Assembly (NCBI RefSeq): GCF_029892285.1
Contig: NZ_JARXVM010000001.1
Location: 744,001-808,000, forward strand
Direction: 5' to 3'
Source of the DNA: Rhizobium sp. SG_E_25_P2
GTDB lineage: Bacteria > Pseudomonadota > Alphaproteobacteria > Rhizobiales > Rhizobiaceae
DNA length: 64,000 bases
In this document: positions 49,910-64,000 of the stretch, one piece after another
How the letters are laid out: each line of letters opens with the position of its first letter
How positions within the stretch are numbered: position 1 is the first letter of the stretch
Notes under the pieces: model-generated
Told to the model about the DNA's origin: nothing
The model's input: the letters and a program-made list of their open reading frames with translations, nothing else
The model's database searches: none
Made by a program: the position numbers and the translations under genes

Positions 49910-50671
49910 ATGATCCTCGCAAACCAGACGGCCATCGTCACCGGCGCGGGTTCCGGCATCGGCCGCGCCGGCGCGGAAATCATGGCGCGCGAAGGCGCCT
50001 ATGTGGCCGTCTTCGACCGCGACAGGGCAGGCGCCGAGGAAACCGTGAAACGGATCAAGGATGCGAGCGGCGAGGCCGAAGCGGTCATCGTCGACGTCAC
50101 CAACGACGCAGGCCTCACCGCAGCGATTGCCGAACTGCATGCCCGGCGCGGCCGTATCGACATTCTCCACAATCATGCCGGCGCCCAGGTCGAGGGCGAT
50201 CTCGAACAGGTCAGCCTCGACGGTTTCGACAAGTCCTGGGATCTCAATGTGCGGGCGCATTTCATCGCCGCCCGCGCCGTGATGCCGTTCATGAAGGCGG
50301 CGGGACGCGGCGTTATCCTCAACACCGCCTCGAGCTCAGGCATTCTCTATGATCGCGAAATGATCGCCTATTGCACCACCAAACATGCGGTGATCGCCAT
50401 GACCAAGCAGATGGCCGGCGATTATGCCAGATATGGCGTGCGGGTGAATGCGCTGTGCCCCGGCTGGGTGGACACGCCGTTCAACGAGCCCTTCATCCGC
50501 CAGGTCGGCGGCCGCGAGGCGATCGAGGCCTATATCTCCAGGCGCGTGCCGATGGGCCGCTGGGCCCAGGTCGAGGAGATTGCCGAGCCGATCCTGTTTC
50601 TCGTCTCGCAGCGGTCTTCTTATATCACTGGGCAGATCCTGGTGGCCGATGGCGGCGAGACCGTTGCCTGA
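49910..50671 (+). CDS. SDR family oxidoreductase
   Basis: This 253-residue protein has an NAD(P)-binding GAGSGIGRAGAEIM glycine motif, HNHAG, the catalytic YCTTKHAV (Tyr-xxx-Lys), and a C-terminal GGET. It begins 1 bp after the permease gene, so it is in the operon and probably acts on the transported compound or a product of it. The Ser/Tyr/Lys triad is present. Confidence 0.93.
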   Translation: MILANQTAIVTGAGSGIGRAGAEIMAREGAYVAVFDRDRAGAEETVKRIKDASGEAEAVIVDVTNDAGLTAAIAELHARRGRIDILHNHAGAQVEGDLEQVSLDGFDKSWDLNVRAHFIAARAVMPFMKAAGRGVILNTASSSGILYDREMIAYCTTKHAVIAMTKQMAGDYARYGVRVNALCPGWVDTPFNEPFIRQVGGREAIEAYISRRVPMGRWAQVEEIAEPILFLVSQRSSYITGQILVADGGETVA

Positions 50672-50732
50672 AGGGAACCGGATCGGTCACCGCACGTTGA
50701 CGCCTCGCGCGATCCGCGCCGAAAGGACTCCG

Positions 50733-51014
50733 ATGTTCATTCCTCCCGTCACCCTCGGCCTCAACATGATGCAACTGGCTTTTGAATCCAATCTGGTGAT
50801 CGGCCTGCGGATGATCACGCTGGGCGCCGGCGGCCAGAAGGCCGCGACCGAAGCGCAATTGATGGTCAGCGAAAAACTGCAGCTGGCGGGATTGCTCGCC
50901 ATCGAAAACGCCTTCGCGCTCGCCCAGGGCAAGTCCCTTGAAAGCACGCAGGCGCGTTCCGTTTCCCGTTATCTCCGCGCCGTCCGCGCCAATCGCCGCA
51001 GGCTTTTGCGATAA
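50733..51014 (+). CDS. Small phasin-like helical protein
   Basis: This 93-residue protein is almost all helix (LGLNMMQLAFESNLVIGLRM, EAQLMVSEKLQLAGLLAIEN), with AAAGGA before ATG 50733. The length and amphipathic helix resemble small phasin-like or antifreeze-like helical proteins annotated in Rhizobiales; function unknown. It is 61 bp after the SDR gene. Confidence 0.65.
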   Translation: MFIPPVTLGLNMMQLAFESNLVIGLRMITLGAGGQKAATEAQLMVSEKLQLAGLLAIENAFALAQGKSLESTQARSVSRYLRAVRANRRRLLR

Positions 51015-51053
51015 ACAGCTTGCGCGTCGGCGCGGGCTTGGCCATGACAAGCC

Positions 51054-52259
51054 ATGAACACGAATATTGCGATCATCGGCGGCGGCCCGGCAGGGTTGAT
51101 GGCGGCGGAACGGCTTGCCGAACTCGGCCATAAGGTCATCGTCTACGAGGCGATGCCGACCGTGGCGCGCAAATTCCTGCTGGCCGGCAAATCCGGTCTC
51201 AATCTCACCCATGCAGAGCCCTATGCCCGATTGATGTCTCGCTATGGATCGGCATCTCCCCGACTTCGGCCGGGGCTCGACGCTTTTCCGCCCGAGGCGT
51301 TGCGCGCCTGGGCCGATGGGCTCGGCGCGGACACATTTGTCGGCAGTTCCGGCCGCGTCTTCCCCAGGGCGATGAAGGCTTCGCCCCTGCTCCGCGCCTG
51401 GCTTCTGCGGCTGTCAAATCTCGGCGTGGAGATCAAAACCCGTCACCGCTGGGTGGGATTTGACGGCGACGCCTTACGCGTTTCGACGCCCGACGGCGAG
51501 ATCACGCTGTCTTCAGCCGCGACATTGCTGGCGCTCGGGGGCGCCAGCTGGCCACGCCTCGGCTCGGACGCCGCCTGGGTGTCGTGGCTGCAACAGCGTG
51601 GCGTGTCCGTGTCGCCGTTTCGTCCGGCCAATTGCGGTTTCGATATCGATTGGAGCCCGGTGTTTCGCGAGCGCTTCGCGGGAGCGCCGTTGAAATCCGT
51701 CGCGCTTCGCTCTGCGGCGGGCGAAACGCGTGGCGAATTTGTGATCTCCAGGCACGGAATTGAAGGAAGCCTGGTCTATGGCCATGCGGCCGCCATCCGT
51801 GATGGCCTCGAAAATGCCGAAACCGAGCCGCTCGTCATCGATCTCCAGCCGGATCGGGGCCTTGATCGGCTCGAGACGGAATTCCGCCAACAGAAAGCCA
51901 AGATCAGCCTCAGCAACCGCCTGCGCAAGGGGGCGGGGCTCGACGGTGTCAAGGCCGCGCTTTTGCGTGAGCTGACGCCGGAACTCGGCTCGCTCGGAGC
52001 GGACGCAGTCGCGCGCCGGATCAAGACATTGCCGTTGCCGGTGCTCCGCCCGCGACCGATCACAGAAGCGATTTCCAGCGCTGGCGGCCTCGACTGGGCC
52101 GAGGTCGATGAAAATTTGATGTTCAGGCGCATCCCCGGCCTGTTTGCCGCCGGTGAGATGTTGGATTGGGAAGCGCCGACAGGCGGCTATCTGCTATCCG
52201 CCTGTTTTGCGTCGGGGCGACATGTCGCATCAGGAATGCACAGCTGGCTATGCGCCTAG
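51054..52259 (+). CDS. FAD-dependent oxidoreductase, BaiN/HI0933-like (TIGR03862)
   Basis: This 401-residue flavoprotein has an N-terminal dinucleotide motif IIGGGPAGLMAAERLAELGH, LAGKSGLNLTHAEP, and a C-terminal GLFAAGEMLDWEAPTGGYLL. The substrate is unknown, but the family is linked to bile acid or quinone-type reductions by name only. It ends before the mobile-element region. Confidence 0.93.
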   Translation: MNTNIAIIGGGPAGLMAAERLAELGHKVIVYEAMPTVARKFLLAGKSGLNLTHAEPYARLMSRYGSASPRLRPGLDAFPPEALRAWADGLGADTFVGSSGRVFPRAMKASPLLRAWLLRLSNLGVEIKTRHRWVGFDGDALRVSTPDGEITLSSAATLLALGGASWPRLGSDAAWVSWLQQRGVSVSPFRPANCGFDIDWSPVFRERFAGAPLKSVALRSAAGETRGEFVISRHGIEGSLVYGHAAAIRDGLENAETEPLVIDLQPDRGLDRLETEFRQQKAKISLSNRLRKGAGLDGVKAALLRELTPELGSLGADAVARRIKTLPLPVLRPRPITEAISSAGGLDWAEVDENLMFRRIPGLFAAGEMLDWEAPTGGYLLSACFASGRHVASGMHSWLCA

Positions 52260-52358
52260 AGCGTGTCGCAATCTTTCGGATTGGCGCCTTACGTTTCTAA
52301 TTTCTTGTTTGTTGGATGTCGCCGTCCGAAACCTGCGGCTGCTTTTGGGCAACCTGTT

Positions 52359-52544
52359 TTAGTGAAGGACGCGGTGATCGTCGGCCATGGGGTCTGAGAA
52401 CAACCTCAGCACGGGGCAATCCGCCAGCGCCCAAACCGCCTTGGTCATCGCGGCGTGATCCCACCCCGTCATGACGGGCGAGATCATGCGAGCCGCCGAG
52501 GCATCGTGCGAATTCGAATCAGTGTTGTTCTTGTCATGCATCAT
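52359..52544 (-). CDS. Small protein of unknown function
   Basis: This 61-residue protein has GAGG before ATG 52544. The sequence (MMHDKNNTDSNSHDASAARM onward) has a His/Asp/Asn-rich start and a hydrophobic middle (ALADCPVLRLFSD). No family recognised. It lies in the degraded region and may be spurious. Confidence 0.35.
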   Translation of the reverse strand: MMHDKNNTDSNSHDASAARMISPVMTGWDHAAMTKAVWALADCPVLRLFSDPMADDHRVLH

Positions 52545-52687
52545 GTGCGCCTCGGTATCGCTGGGAAACGCCGCAGGGAAGCCGGTGGTTCCGGCTATCC
52601 CTCGACGATTGCATCCGCGACCGTTCTAATCACTAATTTTGTCTTAACGGCGACGTCTGGCCTCCACCTACGGTCTTATAGATGCAA

Positions 52688-52718
52688 AAACGCCCGGTGA
52701 TTTTGTCACCCGGCGTTT
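52688..52718 (+). terminator. Hairpin in mobile-element region (near tRNA-like 13-mer)
   Basis: The stem AAACGCCCGGTGA / TCACCCGGCGTTT has one mismatch and a TTTTG loop. It is followed 13 bp later by a copy of TGGTTGCGGGGCC, close to the 13-mer seen beside the hairpin at 54584-54622. Confidence 0.5.
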
Positions 52719-52798
52719 AGGAACTGATTTTTGGTTGCGGGGCCTTTGCATACCGAGACATGTAAATTCAGATCACCGGGTCTTCTCGCAGCATGGGC

Positions 52799-53265
52799 CC
52801 GAGGTCGAATGCAGTCGCCACCACGCTGCAGCGCTCCAAAGGCGGCCAGTTCGTCAGCCACATCCAGGCGCTGCCCGGAACGCCCTATGACGGCCACACG
52901 CTCCAAACCGTCATCCCCGCCATCAAGGGCCCGGTCGGCGCAACGTTGACGTGCATCATCGCCGATACCGGCTACAAGCGCCACAACGCCCCAAGTCCCA
53001 CCGCTTCAAAGACGACACCGCCGGCCAGAAGCGCAGTATGCCTGATCAGATCAAACCGGATCTGCGCAGGCGATCGGCCGTTGAACCCGTCATCGTCCAC
53101 CTCATGGACGACCACCGCATAGGCCGAAACCATCTCGCCCATGCCCAAGGCGACGCTATCCACGCCGTCCTGGCTGCAATCGGCTACACCTACCGGCGCT
53201 TCTTCGCCGGGATCGCTGTCTTAAGCGCATTCATCTGCGCAGCACTTGCTCCGCACGACGCTTCA
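52799..53265 (+). pseudogene. IS5-family transposase fragment, frameshifted
   Basis: Two frames together give the C-terminal part of an IS5-family DDE transposase. The first frame reads GGQFVSHIQALPGTPYDGHT, then LQTVIPAI; the second reads HRFKDDTAGQKRSMPDQIKP, then RRRSAVEPVIVHLMDDHRIG and DAIHAVLAAIGYTYRRF. The frame changes near 52985. The N-terminal half and both inverted repeats are missing. It is dead. Confidence 0.82.
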
Positions 53266-53367
53266 AATCCGACGCTGAATAGCATTTAATGCTCGGTCTT
53301 CACGGGAAACGAACGCCTGGCCGGGTTCTGAATACATCCTGAGCCTGGTTCGCATCTCACCCGGCGA

Positions 53368-54228
53368 TTACGCCATAAGGCCCGCCACGCCGCTCCCCGC
53401 TTGAGCCTCTACCAACTGGAGCACATATTGATTGAACGCTTCCGGCTTTTCGATCTGCGGGGTGTGCCCACACTCCTCCAAAACAACAAGCGATGCCGAA
53501 GGGACAAGCTTGGCTGCGTCAAGCGCTTGTTGGACGGGCAGCACGGTGTCCTGGCGCCCATGCAGGATGATGCAGGGCAGTCGCAAGTTACGCAGCAATA
53601 TATGGGACGTCTCGACAAACTCGGTTTTCTGTCCCCGCAAGCCGGTCATGCGGCGCAGAGTGGTCAAAAAGGCAGCACCTGCGCCCGGCTTTTGCACATT
53701 GCGCGCGACAACCTCGCGAATCTCGGGCGTCACGATCCCAGGATCGTGAAAGAGCGCCTTCAACTGCTGTTCGACCGCAACCTGGCCGGGACGGTTGAGC
53801 AGTTCTCCCAGAAGCGGCAGGGTCATCAGCCTGAAAGGAAAAAACACTTCCCGACCGATGGTCGCGGCATCCGCCAACAATAATCCCGTCACTCTGCCGG
53901 GGAACATGCCGGCCATGCGCAAGCCGATTGCTCCTCCAAGCGAATTACCAACAATCGTGACCTTGTCGATGTCCAGCGCATTGACGAAATGCCACACGAA
54001 GCGTGCAAAAATATCCGCGTCCTGCGGTTCCGGCGCAATATCTGAGAGACCATGCCCCGGGAGATCGAGAGCGATCGTGCGGATCGACGGATCGAACTGG
54101 CCGAGTTGCGGACGCCACATTTCGAGCGAGCCCGCGATGCCATGAATGAACAACACCGGTCTGCCGGCGCCTCCGACGTCGCAATAGCGGATCCGTATCC
54201 CGTCGATGTCAACAAAATTGTCCTGCAT
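53368..54228 (-). CDS. Alpha/beta hydrolase
   Basis: This 286-residue protein has the alpha/beta hydrolase fold: oxyanion FIHGIAGSLEMWRPQL, nucleophile elbow GNSLGGA, acid Asp in HGRQDTVLPVQQ and catalytic His in ECGHTPQIEKPE. It is cytosolic. ATG 54228 is used; a TTG at 54243 opens the frame 5 codons earlier. It may degrade an aromatic or ester compound; substrate not shown. It stands as an intact gene in a region full of dead transposons. Confidence 0.9.
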   Translation of the reverse strand: MQDNFVDIDGIRIRYCDVGGAGRPVLFIHGIAGSLEMWRPQLGQFDPSIRTIALDLPGHGLSDIAPEPQDADIFARFVWHFVNALDIDKVTIVGNSLGGAIGLRMAGMFPGRVTGLLLADAATIGREVFFPFRLMTLPLLGELLNRPGQVAVEQQLKALFHDPGIVTPEIREVVARNVQKPGAGAAFLTTLRRMTGLRGQKTEFVETSHILLRNLRLPCIILHGRQDTVLPVQQALDAAKLVPSASLVVLEECGHTPQIEKPEAFNQYVLQLVEAQAGSGVAGLMA

Positions 54229-54419
54229 GTCACGATCTCCCAATTGTAAACTCGGTCCTTGGGCAAACCTCCCGTATTCAACCGGGTCGATCTGTAGACT
54301 TCATGCCGCCATTGTCTGTTTTTGCGTCGACGTGGCGCCGCCGGTGGCCATATTGGGGTGGTCGTTATGGCCTGTCCAGCGGGTCGTCCGATATAAAACT
54401 GAAGCGCGGCTGAATGGAC

Positions 54420-54560
54420 GTCGCAGCCCGTCACGGCAACTTCGAAGCCGTGGAGTTCGCCAGGTTCGAATGGCTCGCTTGGTTCAACAACCGCCGCCTT
54501 CTGGAGCCCATCGGAGACAGCCCACCCGCTGAGGCCGAAAAACGATCCTGTTCCAATCGG
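54420..54560 (+). pseudogene. IS3-family transposase C-terminal remnant
   Basis: The open frame encodes EFARFEWLAWFNNRRLLEPI, then GDSPPAEAE, which matches the final stretch of IS3-family OrfB (WFNNRRLLEPIG motif). The catalytic DDE part is missing. Confidence 0.75.
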
Positions 54561-54583
54561 CGCGACTACCGACGAGCACAACA

Positions 54584-54622
54584 CGCAAAAGCCCCGCCGG
54601 ATGGACCGTGCGGGGCTTTGCG
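54584..54622. terminator. Hairpin terminator next to tRNA-like repeat copy A
   Basis: The stem CGCAAAAGCCCCGC / GCGGGGCTTTGCG has one bulged A and a 12-nt loop. On the minus strand it follows GCCCCCGCAACCA (complement of 54643-54655), as a terminator follows the 3' end of tRNA-fMet. Confidence 0.6.
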
Positions 54623-54642
54623 TATGATTATTGGATTCTATT

Positions 54643-54669
54643 TGGTTGCGGGGGCTCGCAGCCACCGAT
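54643..54669 (+). repeat. Palindromic repeat copy A with tRNA-fMet-like 13-mer
   Basis: The 27-bp sequence starts TGGTTGCGGGGGC, the reverse complement of the 3' end (GCCCCCGCAACCA) of bacterial initiator tRNA as I know it. It continues CTCGCAGCCACCGAT. It matches copy B at 54715 with four mismatches over 27 bases. Confidence 0.65.
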
Positions 54670-54714
54670 ACCGACATTCGATCCAAGTAGCCGTCTGATA
54701 AAATAATTAATCAA

Positions 54715-54755
54715 TGGTTGCGGGGGCTCACAACCAACGATTCCTGCGATTGGTT
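54715..54755 (+). repeat. Palindromic repeat copy B
   Basis: It starts TGGTTGCGGGGGCTCACAAC and goes on CAACGATTCCTGCGATTGGT. Bases 54724-54754 are exactly repeated at 57076-57106 (31 bp). Inverted parts TGGTTG/CAACCA and AACCAA/TTGGTT make it able to fold. Confidence 0.75.
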
Positions 54756-54912
54756 GAAAACCCTCTCCCGAGGTTAGCGGCTTAGACTCTCGACGTATGC
54801 CCAGTTCGAATCCCTGCCGCCCGCCTGCTTGGCCGATTTTAAGCGATCGCGCGATATTCCGCGCGATCGCCATACAAACCACGCCGATTGCCGCGCCGTT
54901 TGGGGAGGTTCT

Positions 54913-55081
54913 TTATGGCCTCTCCAACCCCGACAGATCGGCGGCGCGTTCGACCAGATAATCAATCAACAGCCGAAATCGTCCGACCTTGGCGCGCTCC
55001 GGCACGATAAGCATGTTGAGCGGCGTGGGGATGAACAATCTTTCGTTTGAAACTCTTTGGTCGAGGACACCGACTCGGTCT
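54913..55081 (-). pseudogene. LysR-type regulator C-terminal remnant
   Basis: On the minus strand one frame reads RVGVLDQRVSNERLFIPTPL, then NMLIVPERAKVGRFRLLIDY and LVERAADLSGLERP, then stop at 54913. This is the end of a LysR-family effector domain (PTPLNML...RLLIDYLVERA). A stop codon upstream near 55082 cuts it off, and no HTH is found. Confidence 0.7.
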
Positions 55082-55326
55082 CAGTGGATCGACCGATTTG
55101 ATGCGAGAAGTGGTAACCGTCAGGTGCCGGCAATCTTCCATCGCCCTCGCTTTAGACAGTTCAGGCGCCAGAAGATCAAGGCACAACGAATATAGAGGAA
55201 CTGAGCGGCGCGCCTAACCAGCTCAGTTCTGCGTGCAAACCAACATTTTTGAGCAAAAAAAGTTCAAATCTTGGCGCACTTCCGGTGACCTCTAGAATGC
55301 AATCCATTCAGATGGGGAGCGTTACT

Positions 55327-55596
55327 GTGAAGAAAACTGTTTTTAACATTGCTGGCGTCTTGTTTGCTATTGTTGCCACCATTGCAGCGGTCTTGGGCCT
55401 TTGCGAATTTAAGGTCGAGCGTTTCGATCGAAACGCGCCGTATCTGGAATGCGAGGTCCTTCGTGAGGTTGATCTAGGTTACATGGGTCGACATGCATTT
55501 TGCCTAGGGGCGACCTTCTACCTCGGCGGCATTCCATACACGCTGACGATCAAAACTGGCGTTGCTGATGCAGATCAGCCTGAAGCAATGCGGTAG
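55327..55596 (+). CDS. Small exported or membrane protein, unknown
   Basis: This 89-residue protein has a hydrophobic N-terminal segment (FNIAGVLFAIVATIAAVLGL) and a soluble part with three Cys (YLECEVLREVDLGYMGRHAF onward). GTG 55327 has GGGGAG upstream; ATG at 55312 is an alternative. The GC content is lower than in nearby metabolic genes. Confidence 0.6.
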   Translation: MKKTVFNIAGVLFAIVATIAAVLGLCEFKVERFDRNAPYLECEVLREVDLGYMGRHAFCLGATFYLGGIPYTLTIKTGVADADQPEAMR

Positions 55597-55695
55597 CGAT
55601 TTACGGCGCATTCTCGAAATCACTGGAACAAAAAGTGAGATTGCAACCTCACAAAGCTTCGCTACATTTCATTGTGTCGAAACAGGGGAATTGCC

Positions 55696-55944
55696 ATGAC
55701 TTATCTCTCTGCAGATCTGTATGAAAACGCACCGTTTCGCTCAGTTTTTTGGGTGCCACATCGCCCGAACTCATACGCCTACATCACCTCTTCGGGAATT
55801 CCGTCTGCGAGACGGGATAAGCAGGCTGCATATGACCGGGAATGGCCCGGCCACGGCTCTGCTCTGGGAGTGGTCGATGAACGCACTGCATGGCTTGAAA
55901 GTTTTCAGCAAACGCTGGACCGTGATCGCGGGAAAGCTCCTTAG
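55696..55944 (+). CDS. Small protein of unknown function
   Basis: This 82-residue frame has ATG 55696 with AGGGGAA upstream (MTYLSADLYENAPFRSVFWV onward). It overlaps the start of the next frame by 68 bp. Only one may be real, or a frameshift joins them; the N-terminal part of this frame and the later frame together could be one broken gene. Confidence 0.4.
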   Translation: MTYLSADLYENAPFRSVFWVPHRPNSYAYITSSGIPSARRDKQAAYDREWPGHGSALGVVDERTAWLESFQQTLDRDRGKAP

Positions 55945-56308
55945 CGAGCACGACCGCTGGGACTTCACCCATTCCTCACCAACCGGCGCTTTCAAAGCGA
56001 TCGCCCAAATCGAGACGGGCATCTTTTTCGCTTCGGTGGCCACAGCTATCGATACCGGTCCACCACCGGTAACGAGCAAGAGCTTCGCTGAAGGCTGGAT
56101 CGAGGATGAAATTCTGATCTATGGCATCGAGTTGTGCGATTTTCGCAAGGATAAGATCGCTTACGCAAAAGCTCAGAAACGAGTGGTTAAATCAATCAAA
56201 GATCAGGTCGAAGACCTCGTGTTTTTCAAATTGATCAAGGTCACTGCCCAATCACACTTAGTGCTGACTGAAACAGGAATGGCGGCGTTTAAGGAGTTGC
56301 GAGAGTAA
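55877..56308 (+). CDS. Unknown protein with winged-helix-like end
   Basis: This 143-residue protein has GGGAG at 6 nt before ATG 55877. Middle KAIAQIETGIFFASVATAID, end VEDLVFFKLIKVTAQSHLVL, then LTETGMAAFKEL, which reads like a winged helix or MarR-like tail. No family recognised. An earlier start at 55832 is possible. Confidence 0.55.
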   Translation: MNALHGLKVFSKRWTVIAGKLLSEHDRWDFTHSSPTGAFKAIAQIETGIFFASVATAIDTGPPPVTSKSFAEGWIEDEILIYGIELCDFRKDKIAYAKAQKRVVKSIKDQVEDLVFFKLIKVTAQSHLVLTETGMAAFKELRE

Positions 56309-56309
56309 T

Positions 56310-56513
56310 ATGGCACACCTACTGAAATATATTTTGCTGATTGTAATCGCGGCAGGAAGCGTCAGCTTTCTGCCGCCGATCAACGAAGCGAAAGCGATCC
56401 CCGCCTCGTACGTGGCAAAACTAATGAGTAACGCTGATCGTGGGAAGACGCCTTCTACCAATTTGCCTACCGCCAATCAGGCGGCAAAGTCAGGGAAACT
56501 GCCGCAGGAATAA
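56310..56513 (+). CDS. Small secreted peptide, unknown
   Basis: This 67-residue protein starts 1 bp after the preceding stop. A signal peptide (LLKYILLIVIAAGSVSFLPP) is followed by a short polar mature part (SYVAKLMSNADRGKTPSTNL) rich in Asn/Thr/Lys. Coupled to the preceding gene by position. Confidence 0.5.
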   Translation: MAHLLKYILLIVIAAGSVSFLPPINEAKAIPASYVAKLMSNADRGKTPSTNLPTANQAAKSGKLPQE

Positions 56514-56616
56514 CACACGCATTCAACGAATATGTCGGCCCCAGAAGAGCCTCGCAAATGCACAGGTGGGCGACGAGAGGGCGAACAATTGTAGATCAGT
56601 CGTCGTCGAAATCCTT

Positions 56617-57075
56617 GTAAGCTTCGCCGTTCTTCTAGGTTTCAGAGAACGGCAATGGACTGTAACCGGTGTTCTGCCCCAAATTGCTCGCTTCCGCCTG
56701 ATCTGTGATCGACATTCCATGGATGAAGAACGGGAGTTTCTCCATGGAGAGTACATTGGAGTTTCTCACAACCAGGAAGCCTGTGCGTGAGGTTCATCGT
56801 CAATGGCCGGACGAGGTCAAAGCGAAGATCGTTTCGGAAAGCCTGAGGCCTGGCACGACGGTCAATGAAGTTGCGCAGCGCTATGGATTGCGGGCGAACA
56901 GTCTTTCCACCTGGCGGACGATGGCGCGGCAGGGCAAGTTGATCCTGCCAGCACCGGAGGATGAGGTAGAGTTCGCGGCGGTGATCGTCGATCCACCTGT
57001 TTCGGAACCGCCGCCTAAAGCGGTTGGTCGCGCCGAGATTGTCGTGGGCCCTGTCACCATTCGTCTTGAGGAAGG
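56617..57075 (+). mobile_element. IS66-family element, truncated left part
   Basis: The left end begins GTAAGCTTCGCCGTTC at 56617, like IS66 terminal repeats that start GTAA. It includes most of the tnpA gene and stops abruptly at 57075, where the 31-bp repeat copy C begins. tnpB, tnpC and the right end are lost. Confidence 0.7.
56744..57075 (+). pseudogene. tnpA: IS66 accessory transposase TnpA, truncated
   Basis: The sequence has LEFLTTRKPVREVHRQWPDE, VSESLRPGTTVNEVAQRYGL, RANSLSTWRTMARQGKL and VGPVTIRLEEG, the IS66 TnpA HTH protein. After residue 110 it runs into unrelated sequence (repeat copy C). ATG 56744 gives the family-typical start. Confidence 0.85.
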
Positions 57076-57106
57076 TGGGCTCACAACCAACGATTCCTGC
57101 GATTGG
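57076..57106 (+). repeat. Repeat copy C, exact 31-bp match to copy B
   Basis: The sequence starts GGGCTCACAACCAACGATTC and ends CTGCGATTGGT. It is exactly repeated at 54724-54754, 2.35 kb away, and lies at the break point of the IS66 tnpA gene. It lacks the tRNA-like TGGTTGCG start. Confidence 0.8.
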
Positions 57107-57253
57107 TCGAGGGACACGTCCCCGAAATCGCGGCGTGATGTTAGCGGCCATCTGAAAGAACCGGCGTGAACGATCCCAAAAGGCCTATGTGCTGCTATAT
57201 ACGTTAGTGTCCCTTGTGACTTTCACGCCCGTCTCAACTTTGCTCTTGCCCGA

Positions 57254-58303
57254 TTAAAGATTGGCAGAGACCCACGCCCGTGCAACAGCAGAATAAGGTG
57301 CTTGCGGCCTCGTCATAGACTGAAGCTTCGCTTTCGTTTGATCACGCAGGAAGCAGACCTTGACCAAAAGCTTTTTATTGAAAGCGATTTCTTCATCCAA
57401 CTGCTCCCGGCGCGCTTGGGATGCGCCTTGCATTTGCATTTCGCGGCCGGCATTGCGCTCCTCTATTTCCAGCGCAAAGGTGGCCAGATTTATGGACATT
57501 TCGAACAGGAAATTCAGATCGCGAACCACCCGCGTCCGCGCTTGAACGAGGCCTAGCCGATTAAGCCCGTAGACTTGAGTAGAGACAGCGCCCTTCTCGC
57601 TCAATCCGGCAGCAGTTGCTGCCCCGACAATCACGTCGGGATCATTCTCTGCAAGCGGTAAGGTCGCTGCGCCGTTCTGGCCCAAAGGTTTTGGGCCAAC
57701 GAGACTCACCAGAGCATCACCCCCCACGTGGAAAACGATATGCTGGTCAGGGTCGTCACGTGTTGGATCGAGCAATAATGCGTGCTCCGCTACAAGGTCG
57801 TCGCCGAACTTGGAGCTTCGCACTCCTCCGGCAGCCAGAGGGAAAGCGCACGCCTTGCCGGTCGAGAGTTCTTTCGAACGATCCAGATCGCCGTCCTTCC
57901 TCAACCTGACAAGACTTGGGTCGTCACCATTCGGCGTCCGCTGATTTCGTCTGCGGTTGCAGTCGATACAGCTCGGCAGTAGATTGGTCCATTCCATCGC
58001 TAGCCACCAATAGCCGGGATGCGTTTCCTCGCCATCAACCTTGCCCTTTGGGCGGAAGTGCTCGACGTCGACCGGCTGAGTGCTTGAATAGTAGCTTTCG
58101 CAATAGGAACACTTGCCGTGAAAAAGCTTTTCCAGGGCCTCTTTGACTTCCGCTGACTTGTAGCGTGTGAACTCGAACGTCTTGTCGCTACCAAGCCCAG
58201 TCATGTGCTCGGTGACCCTTTGCAACTCAGTCTTTCCGTCGCTCCTGTAAGGTTCGTGCAAAACAACGGGCGCCGGGACCTTGGAGCGATCTGCCTTGAT
58301 CAT
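57254..58303 (-). CDS. HNH endonuclease, PtuB-like (Septu-type partner)
   Basis: This 349-residue protein has an N-terminal HNH domain: Cys65-Cys68 (GKCSYCES), VDVEHFRPKGK with Glu81-His82, YWWLAMEWTNLLPSCIDCNR with Asn107 and Cys112-Cys115. All metal and catalytic positions are kept. This is the PtuB/TIGR02646-type layout of Septu and retron-linked HNH nucleases. The C-terminal 200 residues are helical. It overlaps the ATPase gene by 4 bp, so the two form one coupled operon. Probable role: DNA or RNA cleavage during phage attack, controlled by the ATPase. Confidence 0.85.
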   Translation of the reverse strand: MIKADRSKVPAPVVLHEPYRSDGKTELQRVTEHMTGLGSDKTFEFTRYKSAEVKEALEKLFHGKCSYCESYYSSTQPVDVEHFRPKGKVDGEETHPGYWWLAMEWTNLLPSCIDCNRRRNQRTPNGDDPSLVRLRKDGDLDRSKELSTGKACAFPLAAGGVRSSKFGDDLVAEHALLLDPTRDDPDQHIVFHVGGDALVSLVGPKPLGQNGAATLPLAENDPDVIVGAATAAGLSEKGAVSTQVYGLNRLGLVQARTRVVRDLNFLFEMSINLATFALEIEERNAGREMQMQGASQARREQLDEEIAFNKKLLVKVCFLRDQTKAKLQSMTRPQAPYSAVARAWVSANL

Positions 58304-60693
58304 TCCATGAACTCCTTCAGAAAGTCTTTGATCTCTTTTTTTGCCTTGTCGCGGAGCAACGCGCGCCGTTCCGTGTCAACGCTTCTACGAACAGAGAGAT
58401 ATTCTGCCACCGCCTCCTGCACGAGTACGCTGACCTGGGTACGACCGTAGGGCAGAGCATCACCGATCTCCTGGTGGAAGTCTGAAAGAATGCGCTTATC
58501 CTCAGTCGACATCGCCTCCCCTCGTTTCTGGCGGCTCAGGATGTCCGCTACGCGCGCAAATGCTAACTCGGTCCTTCGATCGTCGGTTGAGAAGAGTTGG
58601 AACATGTCAGACGTCAGCAACTGCTCAACTGTCAGGGCACCAATATTGCGGAAATCCGCCACTCGCTCAACGACCTCCGGCAAGAGGTCGCCCTTCGATT
58701 TCTCCCCCTCGTTCTGGTAGCGATTGAGCATCATAACCTCACCTGAGAACATCCCACGAACGCACAGCGGATCGTGGCTTGTCAGGATGAATGTGGCTTT
58801 GGGCAATGCCCGGCGCAACCCGGAAATAATCTGGAGCTTCCAGCGGGGATGAAGATGCGCCTCTATCTCGTCGATGAGCACAATGACGTGGGCGTCTCTC
58901 GCAACCCGCGGCCTCATGTTCGCCGCATCGAGAAGTGTTCGGAAAATGTCGCAAACGACGGCCAGCACGGCTTTGTAACCGGAAGAAGCGACGTCGAGAC
59001 GCTGGCCCAAAATATAGTGGGTGCCATCCTGCCGATCCTTTTTGATACGGATGAAACACTTCTCTCTGCCGCTTGCGGGATCCTGCCGCACCTCAATGCT
59101 CTCAAACGCGCCATCGATCTGAATGATATGACGCAGGGCGGAAACCACCTCATTTAGAGCTTCGGGTTGGCTTTTGCTAAGTTCGATCAGCCATGGCTCG
59201 GGATTGGAGATGTGGCGGTCGTCTTTGAAGAGCGTATCGACATGGCTCAGAGCGTCGTCTCGCTGCTCTTTGCCGTATAATCGATGTGCGCCGTAGGCGA
59301 AGACCAGCGGAGGACGGGTATCTCCTGCTCCTTCTCTCAAGACGCTCATGCGGCCTTTTCCACGGGCGGATATCTCGAGCCTCAATACCCTTTTATCCTG
59401 AAAGCGAAGCTCCACGCTGCTCTCCTGGTACCGCTCTTTTTGCGACGCTGCTGGGGCTCCTCCCATAAACTCAGGATTGGTGGTAAAATCCGCTGGCTCG
59501 TTTCCGAGTTGGTTTCGCAACTCGTCTGGCATGCAGGTCAGCGCAATCGCCTCGAGTATGCTGCTCTTGCCGGTCGAGTTTTCTCCGAGGATGAGCACGC
59601 ATGGTGCTTCGGGAACCTCACTTACCTCCTCAGAGAGGGCGCTGGCACGATGCGCGTCGGAGAGTTTTTCCGGCAGATCGAAGGCAATGTTCTCCAACGA
59701 CTTGAAATTCTTGATTTGGACATCAACCAAACGAGGATGATCCAGAACGAGATTTCGTTGCGTTGATGCTACGGCGATCGGTGCTACCGCAAAATCAACT
59801 GGTGTAGGACTGCGCAGCTGATCGTCGAACTTCTCGAGCGCTTCATTGAGTGCCTCTGAAAACTCCGTCCTCTGCATCCACGCACGGAAAACCAGTGGGA
59901 GACCACTCGGTGTTTTGGATTCCGCTTGACCGAAACGAGAGTAAAGCCGGCCAGCGAGTTCGACCAGAAATATGTAGCGCGAGCCGCCGAACTCGACCGT
60001 CTCAAAGCCCTGACCCTGCTCATCGGAGTCAAATATCAAGCCGCGACGCAGCAGTCGATTCTGCCTTCTTATCGCTTGAACGCGCATTTCCACGAGCTCT
60101 GGACGGTTTAATTTGAAATGTGCGATCGTTTCTGGAACTCGTTTCGTCGCATCGATCAACTCTCCACGAGTATTCACCTTAAAGGCTTTGTAGGGTTGAT
60201 CGAGCTCGCCGGGGAAATAAAGGACTGCGTTTTCGTCAAACCTCAAACCCGGTTCAAGCGGCTCTGCAACAACTCCACCCGCGCTGGGAGGTGATAATCG
60301 GCGGCCTTTCACCCTGAAATAGGATTTGTCAGTTGGCGTGCAGTCGGCGCAGATCGGAAAGAGATTTTCCCAATTGAAAGCGAGCCAAAGATAGGAAAGC
60401 TTGTCACCGATGCCCTTGCTCGGTGTTGCATAAGCAGGCGGACGGAATCGATAAGGCTGCAGCTTCAGTTCGCGTCGTTCGCAGAAGGGGCATTTTCCAT
60501 GAGACAGGGTCGTCAGATGTTCGAGCACGTCGGATTCGAAAGTGTATTTCCAAACCGGCGGTACATCAGTCTGCAATCGTTCGCTTTCGGGAAGACCGAA
60601 ATACGATCGAATTTCATCTAAATACTCGTCAATCTGCGTGTCGAGGGATATCGGCCGGAAAGAGTGACGCCGTTCGTGGTCGAAGAAAAACAT
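58300..60693 (-). CDS. ABC/AAA-type ATPase with degenerate N-terminal HNH-like domain, PtuA-like
   Basis: This 797-residue protein has two parts. Residues 60-125 copy the partner HNH layout: HGKCPFCER (Cys68/Cys71), QPYRFRPPA, YLWLAFNWENLFPICADC (Cys115/Cys118). The HNH His is replaced by Arg (YRFRP for EHFRP). From about 318 follows an ABC-like AAA15/AAA21 ATPase: Walker A GENSTGKSS (370-378), signature-like ASSGYKAVL (569-577), Walker B VIVLIDEIEAHLHP (603-616), His640 in TSHD. ATG 60693 has AGGGAA upstream; the frame is open to 60846. It overlaps the HNH gene. Probable defence ATPase. Confidence 0.85.
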   Translation of the reverse strand: MFFFDHERRHSFRPISLDTQIDEYLDEIRSYFGLPESERLQTDVPPVWKYTFESDVLEHLTTLSHGKCPFCERRELKLQPYRFRPPAYATPSKGIGDKLSYLWLAFNWENLFPICADCTPTDKSYFRVKGRRLSPPSAGGVVAEPLEPGLRFDENAVLYFPGELDQPYKAFKVNTRGELIDATKRVPETIAHFKLNRPELVEMRVQAIRRQNRLLRRGLIFDSDEQGQGFETVEFGGSRYIFLVELAGRLYSRFGQAESKTPSGLPLVFRAWMQRTEFSEALNEALEKFDDQLRSPTPVDFAVAPIAVASTQRNLVLDHPRLVDVQIKNFKSLENIAFDLPEKLSDAHRASALSEEVSEVPEAPCVLILGENSTGKSSILEAIALTCMPDELRNQLGNEPADFTTNPEFMGGAPAASQKERYQESSVELRFQDKRVLRLEISARGKGRMSVLREGAGDTRPPLVFAYGAHRLYGKEQRDDALSHVDTLFKDDRHISNPEPWLIELSKSQPEALNEVVSALRHIIQIDGAFESIEVRQDPASGREKCFIRIKKDRQDGTHYILGQRLDVASSGYKAVLAVVCDIFRTLLDAANMRPRVARDAHVIVLIDEIEAHLHPRWKLQIISGLRRALPKATFILTSHDPLCVRGMFSGEVMMLNRYQNEGEKSKGDLLPEVVERVADFRNIGALTVEQLLTSDMFQLFSTDDRRTELAFARVADILSRQKRGEAMSTEDKRILSDFHQEIGDALPYGRTQVSVLVQEAVAEYLSVRRSVDTERRALLRDKAKKEIKDFLKEFME

Positions 60694-60902
60694 AATTTTC
60701 CCTGCATCTATTGTCCGGACCTCTACTGGCGAGGCGGTTCGTCCGGCGCGTTTCCACCTGACGAAAAGATTGTAGCAAAACACACCGATCGTCGTTGCCG
60801 CCAATCCCCGTTCAGGGCATGGACTATTACCTTCGGAAACAGACATTGCAGCTGCGATCCGATGGTCAAAAACATCTGCACGGTCCGCAAAATTACGCCC
60901 TG

Positions 60903-61937
60903 CTATTGAGCGTCCAACACCGCATTTATAACGTTCGCCAGTCTCGCCCCAGCAAGTGAAATCTGCGTCTCGGCGGCGTTTCGTGCGTCCGTCTCATATT
61001 GCCTACCCAACTCAGCGACACCTTTTGCCGAAAGCACCGGCTCCGCATAGGCGTATTTTCGCGCGATCTGATAGCTTTCCTCAAGCCAGAGCTCGGGATC
61101 GGCAACTGCGGCCGATTCTGGCGTAGGCGGCAGCAGCTTTGAAATGTTCCTCGCTTCGCCGCCCACCTTTTTGACGACGAAGCTGTCGAAGATTGCGCCG
61201 GAAACCGTGGAGTAGCCACCGAACAGGCCGTCCCAGTAGGCATGCAAGGGTATGATTTCGCCGGTGGCCGGACTGACCGTCGCATCATTGCCGCCCCTGT
61301 CTCCAAGGTCCGGCGTGCCCGCGAGCTGGTATTTTAGGCGAAGTTCCTTTGTGAACCGCGCCGTCGCGTGGAGCGGCTGGTGGACATCACCAAGGAGATG
61401 CAGGAGCCAGACAAGATCATAAGAGCGTACGTCATCGGATTGGCCGGCTGTTTTCGGCAGAGCTGCGGTGAACATTTTGATCTGAGTGAGCGCATTAACG
61501 GCGTCCGCATCTGCGAGCGGAGAGCCATCGTTTGAAAACGGAATGTCTTTATAGTGCCAATAAGCATGAATGAGGAGATCGGAATATCCGATGTTCTGCC
61601 CGGCGTTCGGATGGGTTGGCGCATCCTTGGCCGCGCTGCTCGCGTCCCGGTATTCCTTCATCTCCTTGATGTCGTCGGCCCAGACCGCCGCTCGTATGAA
61701 AGTGTAGCGGTCAACGTCCTTGGGAGAACCATCGGGTGTAGCGGGAACGGCTGACGCCCATTCGGCGTATTTCGGATTGAGCCGAGTAAGCCGGTTCGCC
61801 TCGGTGCGGGCTGCCGGTGTCAGGAGCTCGTAGGCCATTGCGGCAATCCGCATGTGGCCTTCGTCCCACCAAGCTGAGGCGGCTGACGGCAAGAAGAGGG
61901 CGCCAACAAGGAACCCGGCTGAGAACGTATTACGCAT
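60903..61937 (-). CDS. S1/P1 family nuclease, secreted
   Basis: This 344-residue protein has a signal peptide (FSAGFLVGALFLPSAASA) cut before WWDEGH, which gives the mature N-terminal Trp that binds zinc in this family. Zinc His/Asp ligands are in HMRIAAMAYE, LIHAYWHY and LLHLLGDVHQPLHA. It cleaves single-stranded DNA or RNA. It is exported, so a direct part in intracellular defence is unlikely. It lies about 210 bp upstream of the ATPase gene on the same strand. Confidence 0.92.
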   Translation of the reverse strand: MRNTFSAGFLVGALFLPSAASAWWDEGHMRIAAMAYELLTPAARTEANRLTRLNPKYAEWASAVPATPDGSPKDVDRYTFIRAAVWADDIKEMKEYRDASSAAKDAPTHPNAGQNIGYSDLLIHAYWHYKDIPFSNDGSPLADADAVNALTQIKMFTAALPKTAGQSDDVRSYDLVWLLHLLGDVHQPLHATARFTKELRLKYQLAGTPDLGDRGGNDATVSPATGEIIPLHAYWDGLFGGYSTVSGAIFDSFVVKKVGGEARNISKLLPPTPESAAVADPELWLEESYQIARKYAYAEPVLSAKGVAELGRQYETDARNAAETQISLAGARLANVINAVLDAQ

Positions 61938-61962
61938 GTGCTACTCCTCCATTTACGAAAAT

Positions 61963-63162
61963 CTATGGCCCCGGTCGCGATGTCGGCGCTCCACCATCTT
62001 CGGGAAAAGATATATCGAACCAACCACCGTCGCTCAGATTGCGTGTGTCGTCGAGGTGCGCCCGCCCTTCGACCAGCGTCAGCGTGTCGGGATCCGGCAC
62101 GCCGGAATAAGCGCCTTCACGCGTCGAGACGACCGTAAAGCGTGGCCGGCTGTCGGGCGACTGTTCGGGCAAAACCTTATCGATTTGGTGCAGGGGAGAA
62201 CCGTTCTTACTTCCGTGGTGGCTGATCTTCAGGAAATGCACCGGCCGCAGCTCGGACACGCGTTCCATCATTTCCCAACTCTTCTCCTCTGCGTCGCCCG
62301 GGAAAAGCAGACGCCACCCATTCCATTCCAGCTCGATAGCAATACTCGAATTGTTGGCAGCCTTATCAATCGTGCGGAGATTGGCCGCCATGCCGCTGGA
62401 ACGAAACTCTATCAGATCGAAGAAGTCACCCGCAGATACGCCGGCAGGCGGCGTCATGGCCCTGGCGTCTTGCGACAGGGGGGCCGCACCATCTAGGAAA
62501 GCTCCCAGCGTGCGCGGCGGCAAGGCACCATAATAGATTGACGTATCCTCTTCCGGAGCCAGCACCCTTAATTTCGTCCGTTGGAACGGATGCCGGCCGG
62601 AAACGTCAGTAGTGCGGTGTACATAGAGTGGTTTTATCCCACCGACGCCCCGCTTGCTAATGTAATCGACGCAGTCTTTGGTGGCGCGCGGATTGTTGAT
62701 GTCGAGCAGTGCCTGAATGCCGGTCGGGACCGGAACCGCGCTCTTTGTAAGGAAGGCGGCAACGCTGTCATAAGCGGCAAGCGCTGCAAGCCGCTTCCGC
62801 TTCGCCTTCGGGAACCGGCTATAATACCCCACCCCTTCCGACGAGGCGGTCATCCAAACGTGCCGGGCCTCAAAATCGATGCCAAGTTTCCGGGCGCCAT
62901 GGAGAAGCCCTTGCACATGGTCCATGTGCTCATGCGTCATAATATAGAGGTCGATCGGCTTGCCGCCGAGTTCGTCCCTGATGTTCTTCAAAACCGGCTC
63001 AAATACCTCGTCGCGACCGCCCGCTCCGGCGAGCGCGTTGCCGACATCGATCAACACCGTGACCGTGACTTCGTTTCCGGCACTATCGACCTCGGGGATG
63101 GTCAGCAGGATGGCATCGCCGAACAGCACATTGTAGATCCTGATTTTGAGCTCGCGCGTCAT
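61963..63162 (-). CDS. MBL-fold hydrolase, ComEC/Rec2-like domain
   Basis: This 399-residue cytosolic protein has metallo-beta-lactamase fold motifs: TVTVLIDVGNA, MTHEHMDHVQGLLHGARKLG (HxHxDH), LLFPGDAEEKSWEMM and FLKISHHGSKNGSPLHQI. The last two (GDAE, HHGS) are typical of the ComEC-type MBL branch; no membrane channel is present. It begins 1 bp after the stop of the unknown upstream gene, in one operon. A nuclease or phosphodiesterase role is likely; the substrate is unknown. Confidence 0.9.
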   Translation of the reverse strand: MTRELKIRIYNVLFGDAILLTIPEVDSAGNEVTVTVLIDVGNALAGAGGRDEVFEPVLKNIRDELGGKPIDLYIMTHEHMDHVQGLLHGARKLGIDFEARHVWMTASSEGVGYYSRFPKAKRKRLAALAAYDSVAAFLTKSAVPVPTGIQALLDINNPRATKDCVDYISKRGVGGIKPLYVHRTTDVSGRHPFQRTKLRVLAPEEDTSIYYGALPPRTLGAFLDGAAPLSQDARAMTPPAGVSAGDFFDLIEFRSSGMAANLRTIDKAANNSSIAIELEWNGWRLLFPGDAEEKSWEMMERVSELRPVHFLKISHHGSKNGSPLHQIDKVLPEQSPDSRPRFTVVSTREGAYSGVPDPDTLTLVEGRAHLDDTRNLSDGGWFDISFPEDGGAPTSRPGP

Positions 63163-63163
63163 C

Positions 63164-64000
63164 TCAATGCTCCATCATGTGTAGCATCTCGCCCATGGCG
63201 CGGACGCGCAGCGTACCATTCTGGATTTGTACGTTGGGTGAGCCGAACTCAAGCAAACCTTCGTCGATATTGGCGGCCAAGAATGCTGTGCGCATGTCAT
63301 TGTTCTGCGAGGTCGATCCATCATGCTGCGAAGGGTGGTCGGGGCTGGTCGACAGAAGTGAATGCACCTTGTGCGTGTCCCAATCAATTGCCAGCGTCGT
63401 CCCGCGCGCGACGGCCACCTCTTGAACCAAGTCACCCGTCCGGAAGAGCTGGGCCGCTTGCCAATGGACCTTGAACAGAAGCGTGCGGGTCAATGCCGCA
63501 GCACCGCCTTTGCGCCAGGTCTTCCTGGTGACATCAAGCCGCGGCCGCACCTCGAAAGGTATGCCCACCGGGATCAGCAACTTATCGCGCCAGGCTTCCG
63601 CGAACTGGTACGCTGCCCAGTCGCTGCTCGCCAGTTGCTCGAGATCAAGTTCGGTCGGGAAGTCGAGGCCGGGGTCAACCAGATCGAGCGTTCCCGCATC
63701 TTCGACCATGCCCCGGCGTATGAATTCGGCCTTGATGAAATCGCGCGGTTCTGGATCATCCGGGTTCGAATGGATATCAGCAGCGACCATGGCACGACCA
63801 TAGTCGGCAAAAGAGATCTCGCCCGGCGGCAAATAGTCGAGCGCACGAAAAGCGATACGCTTGAACTTCTCTGTCGCCTTGAACAGCGCGAAACCTGAAA
63901 CGGAAAATCGGACCCTATCCTTCTCTTCATCCGTCAGTTCTGGATCGCTCGCTTCCTTTCGTTTCGCCTCCTGTTTAGCAAGCTTCTCCTCATAATCCTC
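63164..64000 (-). CDS. Unknown protein, C-terminal 278 codons (continues past window end)
   Basis: The frame is open from the window edge to the stop at 63164-63166. The visible part begins with a charged helical stretch (YEEKLAKQEAKRKEASDPEL), then a region ADYGRAMVAADIHSNPDDPE and WRDKLLIPVGIPFEVRPRLD, and a C-terminal half with VARGTTLAIDWDTHKVHSLL. An internal TTG at 63832 is not the start. No family recognised. It is coupled to the MBL-fold gene (1 bp gap), so the two probably act together. Confidence 0.7.
   Translation of the reverse strand, partial: EDYEEKLAKQEAKRKEASDPELTDEEKDRVRFSVSGFALFKATEKFKRIAFRALDYLPPGEISFADYGRAMVAADIHSNPDDPEPRDFIKAEFIRRGMVEDAGTLDLVDPGLDFPTELDLEQLASSDWAAYQFAEAWRDKLLIPVGIPFEVRPRLDVTRKTWRKGGAAALTRTLLFKVHWQAAQLFRTGDLVQEVAVARGTTLAIDWDTHKVHSLLSTSPDHPSQHDGSTSQNNDMRTAFLAANIDEGLLEFGSPNVQIQNGTLRVRAMGEMLHMMEH

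Follow-up and report, generated by a model that had tools for sequence, protein, structure and literature searches.

A Septu-type gene pair in Rhizobium in which the ATPase PtuA carries a predicted inactive copy of its nuclease partner PtuB

We analysed a 64,000-nt stretch of the genome of Rhizobium sp. SG_E_25_P2 (the window, meaning the whole stretch; coordinates are positions within it), in which the ATPase gene ptuA is followed by the nuclease gene ptuB, both on the minus strand. The pair is of Septu type (PtuAB) by its sequence and is predicted to act against phage. PtuA (58300..60693; 797 amino acids (aa)) consists of an N-terminal PtuB-like domain and an ABC-type ATPase, as seen from its open reading frame (ORF) and from PADLOC and Pfam. 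Its residues 1–794 align with positions 1–772 of the 773 in the PADLOC PtuA1 model PDLC00291 (E 1.9e-233), the Pfam family AAA_21 is matched at residues 367–643 (E 1.4e-11) and AAA_15 from residue 323. A longer start giving 848 aa is open, and the 797-aa start is the one that coincides with where aligned relatives begin. PtuB (57254..58303; 349 aa) is an HNH nuclease that keeps the PtuB residue set, assigned from PADLOC (PtuB1 model PDLC00329, E 8.6e-115), a profile and an AlphaFold2 model with a predicted local distance difference test score (pLDDT) of 94.1. Pfam gave no match to this protein at E 0.1 and phmmer with PtuB alone against the Protein Data Bank (PDB) returned nothing significant (best PtuB E 0.26); a profile of 61 PtuBs reached the solved PtuB chains with a best E of 3.1e-5. 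The stop of ptuA and the start of ptuB overlap as ATGA (58300..58303). An earlier note on this DNA had described a Septu-like pair with this overlap at these positions, and the ORFs and the PADLOC assignments as PtuA1 and PtuB1 bear it out.

Residue conservation was counted over 102 PtuA/PtuB pairs, a set that includes near-copies (for example, loci L003/L059, L004/L073 and L067/L070) and is reduced to 78 at 70% identity. Pairs L129–L134 and L169 were chosen because the partner is visible; the PtuB of L080 is truncated and that of L048 has one unreadable residue. The ATPase part of PtuA (residues 323–797; 58303..59727) is defined by AAA_21, AAA_15 and the solved PtuA chains, which match the window protein best at residues 566–646 (E 1.8e-12). 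Within it the Walker A motif (residues 370–377; 59563..59586) has G370 and K376 in all 102 proteins and S377 in 101, and D608 and E609 of Walker B (58867..58872), like H640, are kept in 102/102. In the partner PtuBs, E81 and H82 (58058..58063 in the window) and N107 (57983..57985) are each present in 102/102 and N116 in 101/102. The locus thus combines an ABC-type ATPase homologous to PtuA and bearing Walker A and B motifs with an adjacent, same-strand ptuB whose product is an HNH protein with the acid–His, Asn and zinc Cys set, as in Septu type I. According to one report (PMC13096335), Walker A or B mutants of PtuA abolish defence in an E. coli Septu system, as do mutants of PtuB H75 or N91, and tRNA-Tyr is cut; in Providencia, another (PMC12935923) gives PtuB H53K (H53A in one legend) as conferring no protection. 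In a phmmer comparison with the PDB, H82 and N107 of the window align with two residues of Ec78 PtuB, a His and an Asn, whose spacing is 16 residues. Because H75 and N91 show the same spacing, we infer that they correspond to H82 and N107.

The unusual feature of the pair is the N-terminal part of PtuA. About 320 residues precede the ATPase, and about 250 of these (residues 1–250; 59944..60693) form a fused copy of PtuB; residues 300–322, just before the ATPase part, are a linker modelled with low confidence (59728..59796; pLDDT <50). In a single BLASTP comparison, PtuA residues 54–119 and PtuB residues 51–116 share 39% identity (E 2e-11), and profiles of the two families align with an E value of 6.6e-33. 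The earlier note had located an HNH-like domain at residues 60–125 of PtuA; the motifs that it quoted are correct and the similarity is real, but its extent was underestimated, as the match to PtuB runs from residue 1 to an LNRxxLxxxR segment and takes in most of PtuB. A chance resemblance is ruled out by the BLASTP, profile and structural matches, and an HNH core as the only fused module by the coverage of most of PtuB. By alignment and model comparison, the module is a PtuB fold and not a bare HNH domain. A Foldseek search with the copy included Ec78 PtuB, tied with the PtuB of E. coli Septu, among its best structural matches; the HNH fold, whose absence the earlier note had named as a possible refutation, is therefore supported by both profiles and structure searches.

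The catalytic set did not survive in this fold. Residues 60–125 of PtuA (60319..60516) form a degenerate HNH zinc core in which Cys68, Cys71, Cys115, Cys118 and Asn110 are retained. In register with PtuB, E81 is replaced by Tyr and the catalytic H82 by Arg82 (codon 60448..60450), as the earlier note had read this position; the middle Asn is kept (N107 in PtuB, N110 in PtuA) and the Asn after the last Cys is changed (N116 to T119). The N-terminal part of PtuA thus has the PtuB/HNH fold and, with Y81, R82 and T119 in the decisive places, lacks the catalytic set. It is close to certain, from sequence and models together, that the architecture is that of a dead PtuB copy fused to PtuA with an active PtuB alongside.

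The same pattern extends across the sampled pairs. The four Cys residues, Pro85 and Asn110 are kept in 102/102 copies, and place 82 is occupied by R in 77, H in 10, Q in 8, L in 4, Y in 2 and F in 1. The earlier view of a catalytically dead copy fused to the ATPase beside an active HNH partner holds in the window, but the copy is not always without His (10/102). Three of the ten His-bearing copies also have the preceding acid, and one has the whole set; acid, His and both Asn occur together in 1 of 102 copies (L126) versus 101 of 102 partners. Forty-one places are conserved in ≥95% of the 102 PtuBs, and 13 of them are kept in every one of the 88 copies of the window's type, namely the four Cys, R84, P85, W103, W108, N110, F126, P161, L195 and R204. 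In these 88 copies E81 is kept in none, H82 in 5 and N116 in 3, and K86, S111 and K150 in none. The 14 rows outside the window type are less degenerate, with the acid kept in 11, the His in 5 and N119 in 8. Loss is graded, from the whole set in L126, through acid and His in L037 and L038 and acid and last Asn in L040 and L042, to the window type, in which all but the middle Asn is lost. The combination of a lost HNH set with retained zinc ligands and core aromatics is the pattern of a pseudoenzyme, although the losses are not limited to the active centre. On this sequence evidence, the copy is catalytically degenerate while the separate PtuB is intact.

We looked for the arrangement elsewhere by scanning 84,980 species genomes and taking the best 80 of 298 relatives, with ORF starts set at the longest ATG, GTG or TTG frame. 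The 80 were ranked on a full-length profile, so the sample favours complete architectures and is not unbiased. The second PtuB beside the fusion, for which the earlier note had suggested a search, was found in every case: a same-strand PtuB lies downstream of ptuA in 80/80 relatives, with its start −274 to +6 nt from the ptuA stop in 79 of them (a 4-nt overlap, as in the window, in 28) and 2.9 kb away in L057. These relatives comprise 50 alpha-, 24 gamma- and 5 betaproteobacteria and 1 planctomycete, and span 45 named genera (4 of the 80 have no genus). They rule out a misassembly or a peculiarity of one genome, and because the arrangement recurs in so many bacteria it looks like a stable Septu variant and no accident of one genome. 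Plasmid and viral records yielded further pairs, including ones from Priestia (Bacillota) and Klebsiella. Viral contigs contributed five loci, of which the three examined (L124, L125 and L126) all hold full-length pairs; a tblastn search of phage records gave no match covering more than 80% of PtuA (0 of 7 records with a match). Among 297 genomes of the same order, 3 have the full-length form, one of them being the genome of the window. Of 249 genomes of the phylum, 25 pass the cut-off of TIGR02646, a family model for PtuB-type proteins in general; the window's own PtuB falls below this cut-off. When the same 249 genomes were searched with a profile built from five fused forms of lesser degeneracy, 3 matches (window included) were near full length and 1 was partial. 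The fused form thus seems to be a minority, although the TIGR02646 and fused-form searches cover different families.

Long PtuA proteins of this kind are already detected as Septu. Three PADLOC PtuA1 models include the PtuB-like domain: PDLC00291 (window, L056), PDLC00288 (L037, L126) and PDLC00292 (L131, L125, L134). These models rule out a previously undetected system, and since PADLOC already classes such proteins as PtuA1, we regard the pair as a Septu variant and not as a new system. The PDLC00288 and PDLC00292 lineages share the fusion and the second PtuB but have a less degenerate copy than the window. The solved PtuA chains that match the window protein have only 456–552 aa. The statement in the earlier note that known PtuA lacks an HNH domain agrees with these chains, whose best-matching stretches fall in the ATPase part, but not with the PADLOC PtuA1 models. 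Septu type I (PADLOC PtuA1/PtuB1) resembles the window in gene order, the ATPase gene coming first and the HNH gene overlapping its end, with matches over nearly the whole length of both proteins; the PtuA of E. coli Septu (8ee4/8eea) differs, with 465 aa and its best match in the ATPase part. Retrons of type I-A (Ec78 and Ec83, with reverse transcriptase (RT), PtuA and PtuB) have homologous PtuA and PtuB proteins, with full PtuA chains of 542–552 aa; an Rfam scan of window positions 50000–64000 found no RNA, and no RT was found by Pfam or PADLOC among the ptuAB neighbours scanned, which were part of the ORFs. In L134 (5955–6968, Priestia megaterium), a same-architecture pair has an opposite-strand neighbour annotated as a retron St85-type RT. 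PtuXYZ operons (PMC11980606) also combine a PtuA-like ATPase with nucleases, but the partners are DUF262 and PIN-BECR proteins and PtuX is described as not PtuB-like. We found no description of a dead PtuB copy in PtuA in the open-access papers searched; key structure papers lie outside that search and may mention it.

Phylogenetic analysis addressed how the copy arose. Both trees come from quick searches and have long branches. The first covers 78 rows of the ATPase part: 65 rows, mostly with Arg at place 82, form a fully supported clade, the 13 rows outside it have partly kept catalytic sets, and at least six changes between His and non-His are needed; L040 and L131 join in this tree, both on long branches, and their pairing calls for caution. 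A second tree combined the 38 sampled copies and their partners with 20 PtuBs of the short type; in it the 38 partners occupy one side of a branch with a support of 92, and 35 of the 38 copies group together. As L131, L042 and L129 fall outside the other copies in this free quick tree, a single origin is likely, short of shown. A single clade of all 38 copies is compatible with the data (approximately unbiased test, p-AU 0.72), the constrained tree having a log-likelihood 18 above that of the free quick tree, which disfavours multiple independent fusions; one clade of copies and partners against the 20 short-type PtuBs is also compatible (p-AU 0.80). Distances among copies track those among partners (Spearman 0.70, a value reached in none of 999 permutations; L131 was excluded, leaving 37 of the 38 loci), and the copies have evolved faster than PtuB, with a median path ratio of 2.17 among 25 window-type rows and about 1.2 among the others. 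The root was not inferred, so directions of gain and loss are interpretation and some window-type His residues may have been regained. A likely history, read from the sequences, is one duplication of an ancestral ptuB, with one copy becoming fused to the front of ptuA, followed by shared descent of copy and partner and by loss of catalysis, with the fold retained, in several lineages through different substitutions. The sequences also support assigning the pair to a distinct Septu lineage. The earlier suggestion of a distinct subtype is to this extent upheld by the branch that unites the 38 partner PtuBs, but relatives are common and already fall within PDLC00288, PDLC00291 and PDLC00292.

The faster evolution of the copy is not decay. 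Among 33 close pairs, which overlap and hence are not independent, the ratio of nonsynonymous to synonymous substitution rates (dN/dS) of the copy is 0.07–0.36 in the 28 for which it could be computed; defined values are 0.03–0.21 for the ATPase and 0.06–0.21 for PtuB. By this measure of sequence change, the copy domain is under constraint.

From the Septu family it would be expected that the PtuA ATPase controls the PtuA–PtuB complex and that infection leads the separate PtuB to cleave host tRNA or DNA. The Septu target is named as tRNA-Tyr in some reports and as DNA in one cited report, and a table in PMC12948488 gives the Septu complex as PtuA6:PtuB2; the titles of the Ec78 structure entries give PtuA:PtuB:RT ratios of 4:2:1 and 4:2:2. 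We propose that the fused pseudonuclease would take a PtuB-like place in the complex, on every PtuA subunit, and thereby position or restrain the active PtuB. In addition, it may hold the nucleic acid substrate of PtuB. Such a structural or regulatory role has in our judgement an even chance of being correct. In its support, the ATPase motifs are intact, the separate PtuB has its full set and the pair stays together. Several observations weigh against it. Thirteen of the 41 conserved PtuB places, including E26, Y48, Y67 (changed to F), G97, L109, G149 and P185, survive in at most 7 of the 88 window-type copies, and losses thus reach beyond the active centre. The Foldseek superpositions of the copy are loose (root-mean-square deviation 8.7–11.7; TM score 0.31–0.40 by query length). 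The window PtuB model matched no PtuB chain in Foldseek (best E 0.88), so that the identity of PtuB rests on sequence profiles. With its catalytic set lost, the copy is very probably inactive, short of proof, and its roughly 2.2-fold faster evolution suits a role in recognition no less than one as a fixed interface. Recognition of a target or trigger is indeed the nearest rival: a copy relieved of catalysis could bind target RNA or DNA or a phage trigger and vary to follow it, with PtuB doing the cutting. We consider this possible, though doubtful. Besides the rate of the copy, the Arg at the catalytic place in most copies would suit it, as would the divergence seen in 150-nt windows across seven Pseudomonas operons, in which mean pairwise identity is 0.59–0.78 in copy and linker, 0.63 in the first 150 nt of the ATPase and 0.78–0.92 in the rest of it, and 0.68–0.90 in PtuB. 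In L078/L083, identity is 0.96–1.00 over roughly the first 1350 nt of ptuA and 0.78–0.95 beyond, as after an exchange, and for several of the close pairs (L108/L109, L110/L111 and L045/L047 among them) dN is higher in the copy than in the other two parts. However, the excess divergence is not general, being absent from the Rhizobium loci L103/L118/L121/L122 and from L081/L090 and L089/L120, and the regions flanking the Pseudomonas operons have diverged even further. We hold more tentatively still to a bolder form of the idea, in which the dead copy is an exchangeable, fast-evolving sensor tied to the ATPase that sets the trigger or the cut target of Septu; were it true, specificity could be changed by swapping one domain.

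Other explanations for the copy fare worse. It might still cut with a rearranged centre, making a system with two nucleases; the middle Asn and four Cys in all copies, the whole set in L126 and the acid and His in L037 and L038 speak for this, but the 88 window-type copies have nearly or wholly lost the acid, His and N116 that their partners keep, and the defence lost in PtuB His or Asn mutants of characterised Septu (PMC13096335) makes a second nuclease improbable. That the dead copy serves as a decoy, soaking up phage proteins that inhibit PtuB, is somewhat less probable again: a PtuB fold kept without its catalytic set would suit such a role, but a decoy would have no need to be fused to PtuA. 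Least credible is a functionless relic of duplication heading for loss. The faster rate of the copy, the stand-alone 207-aa relative in L041 with no ATPase beside it and the ptuA frame of L130, with only 502 codons and no PtuB-like domain, could be read in this way; against it, the copy is present throughout the 80 relatives (a sample, as noted, ranked by full-length similarity), 13 PtuB places are kept in 88/88 and dN/dS is well below 1. The lineage offers a natural experiment, with nuclease and dead copy in one system and relatives at several stages of catalytic loss. It could show whether recognition or assembly is separable from cutting in Septu, and so bears on how the system senses infection and selects its target. 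For annotators, long PtuA1 proteins carry a PtuB copy, and an HNH-type match in PtuA should not by itself be read as a second active nuclease.

Of 109 sequences searched (the window and 108 loci), 24 have a patatin-like phospholipase gene close to the pair, and in 23 of these the strand is the same; the gene is found in L034, L036, L043 and 21 of the 80 loci L044–L123 (for example, L044:4087–5985 and L082:6020–8032), with Pfam Patatin matches of E ~1e-12 in the three examples scanned. Within the 80 loci, 10 have it upstream of ptuA and 11 downstream of ptuB, in most cases as the immediate neighbour (1.7 kb away in L062), and several of the nearest relatives of the window have it (L044, L045, L051–L054). 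A search of the window's genome, run without a positive control, gave no match to it. The phospholipase may be an optional third component.

Directly upstream of ptuA in the window, on the same strand, is an S1/P1 nuclease gene (60903–61937; Pfam E 1.6e-41). A same-strand run that includes a metallo-β-lactamase (MBL)-fold protein (window 61963–64000 and L199:665–5110) lies upstream of ptuA. The MBL-fold protein has partial PADLOC matches, the best to LmuA (E 5.6e-19) and then to Avs1a and PDC-M48B; the run also encodes a 584-aa protein with a HEATH motif that neither Pfam nor PADLOC matches, together with a lipase-like protein and another MBL-like protein, and is possibly a further defence operon. 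A long PtuA has a relative of the 584-aa protein nearby in L046, L057, L084 and L093, as does the lone copy of L041. This lone copy, the 207-aa protein of Rhizobium gallicum (L041:4995–5618), matches only the PtuB copy of PtuA, at PDLC00291 positions 26–220 (E 2.2e-67), and adjoins an HExxH protein and an MBL protein.

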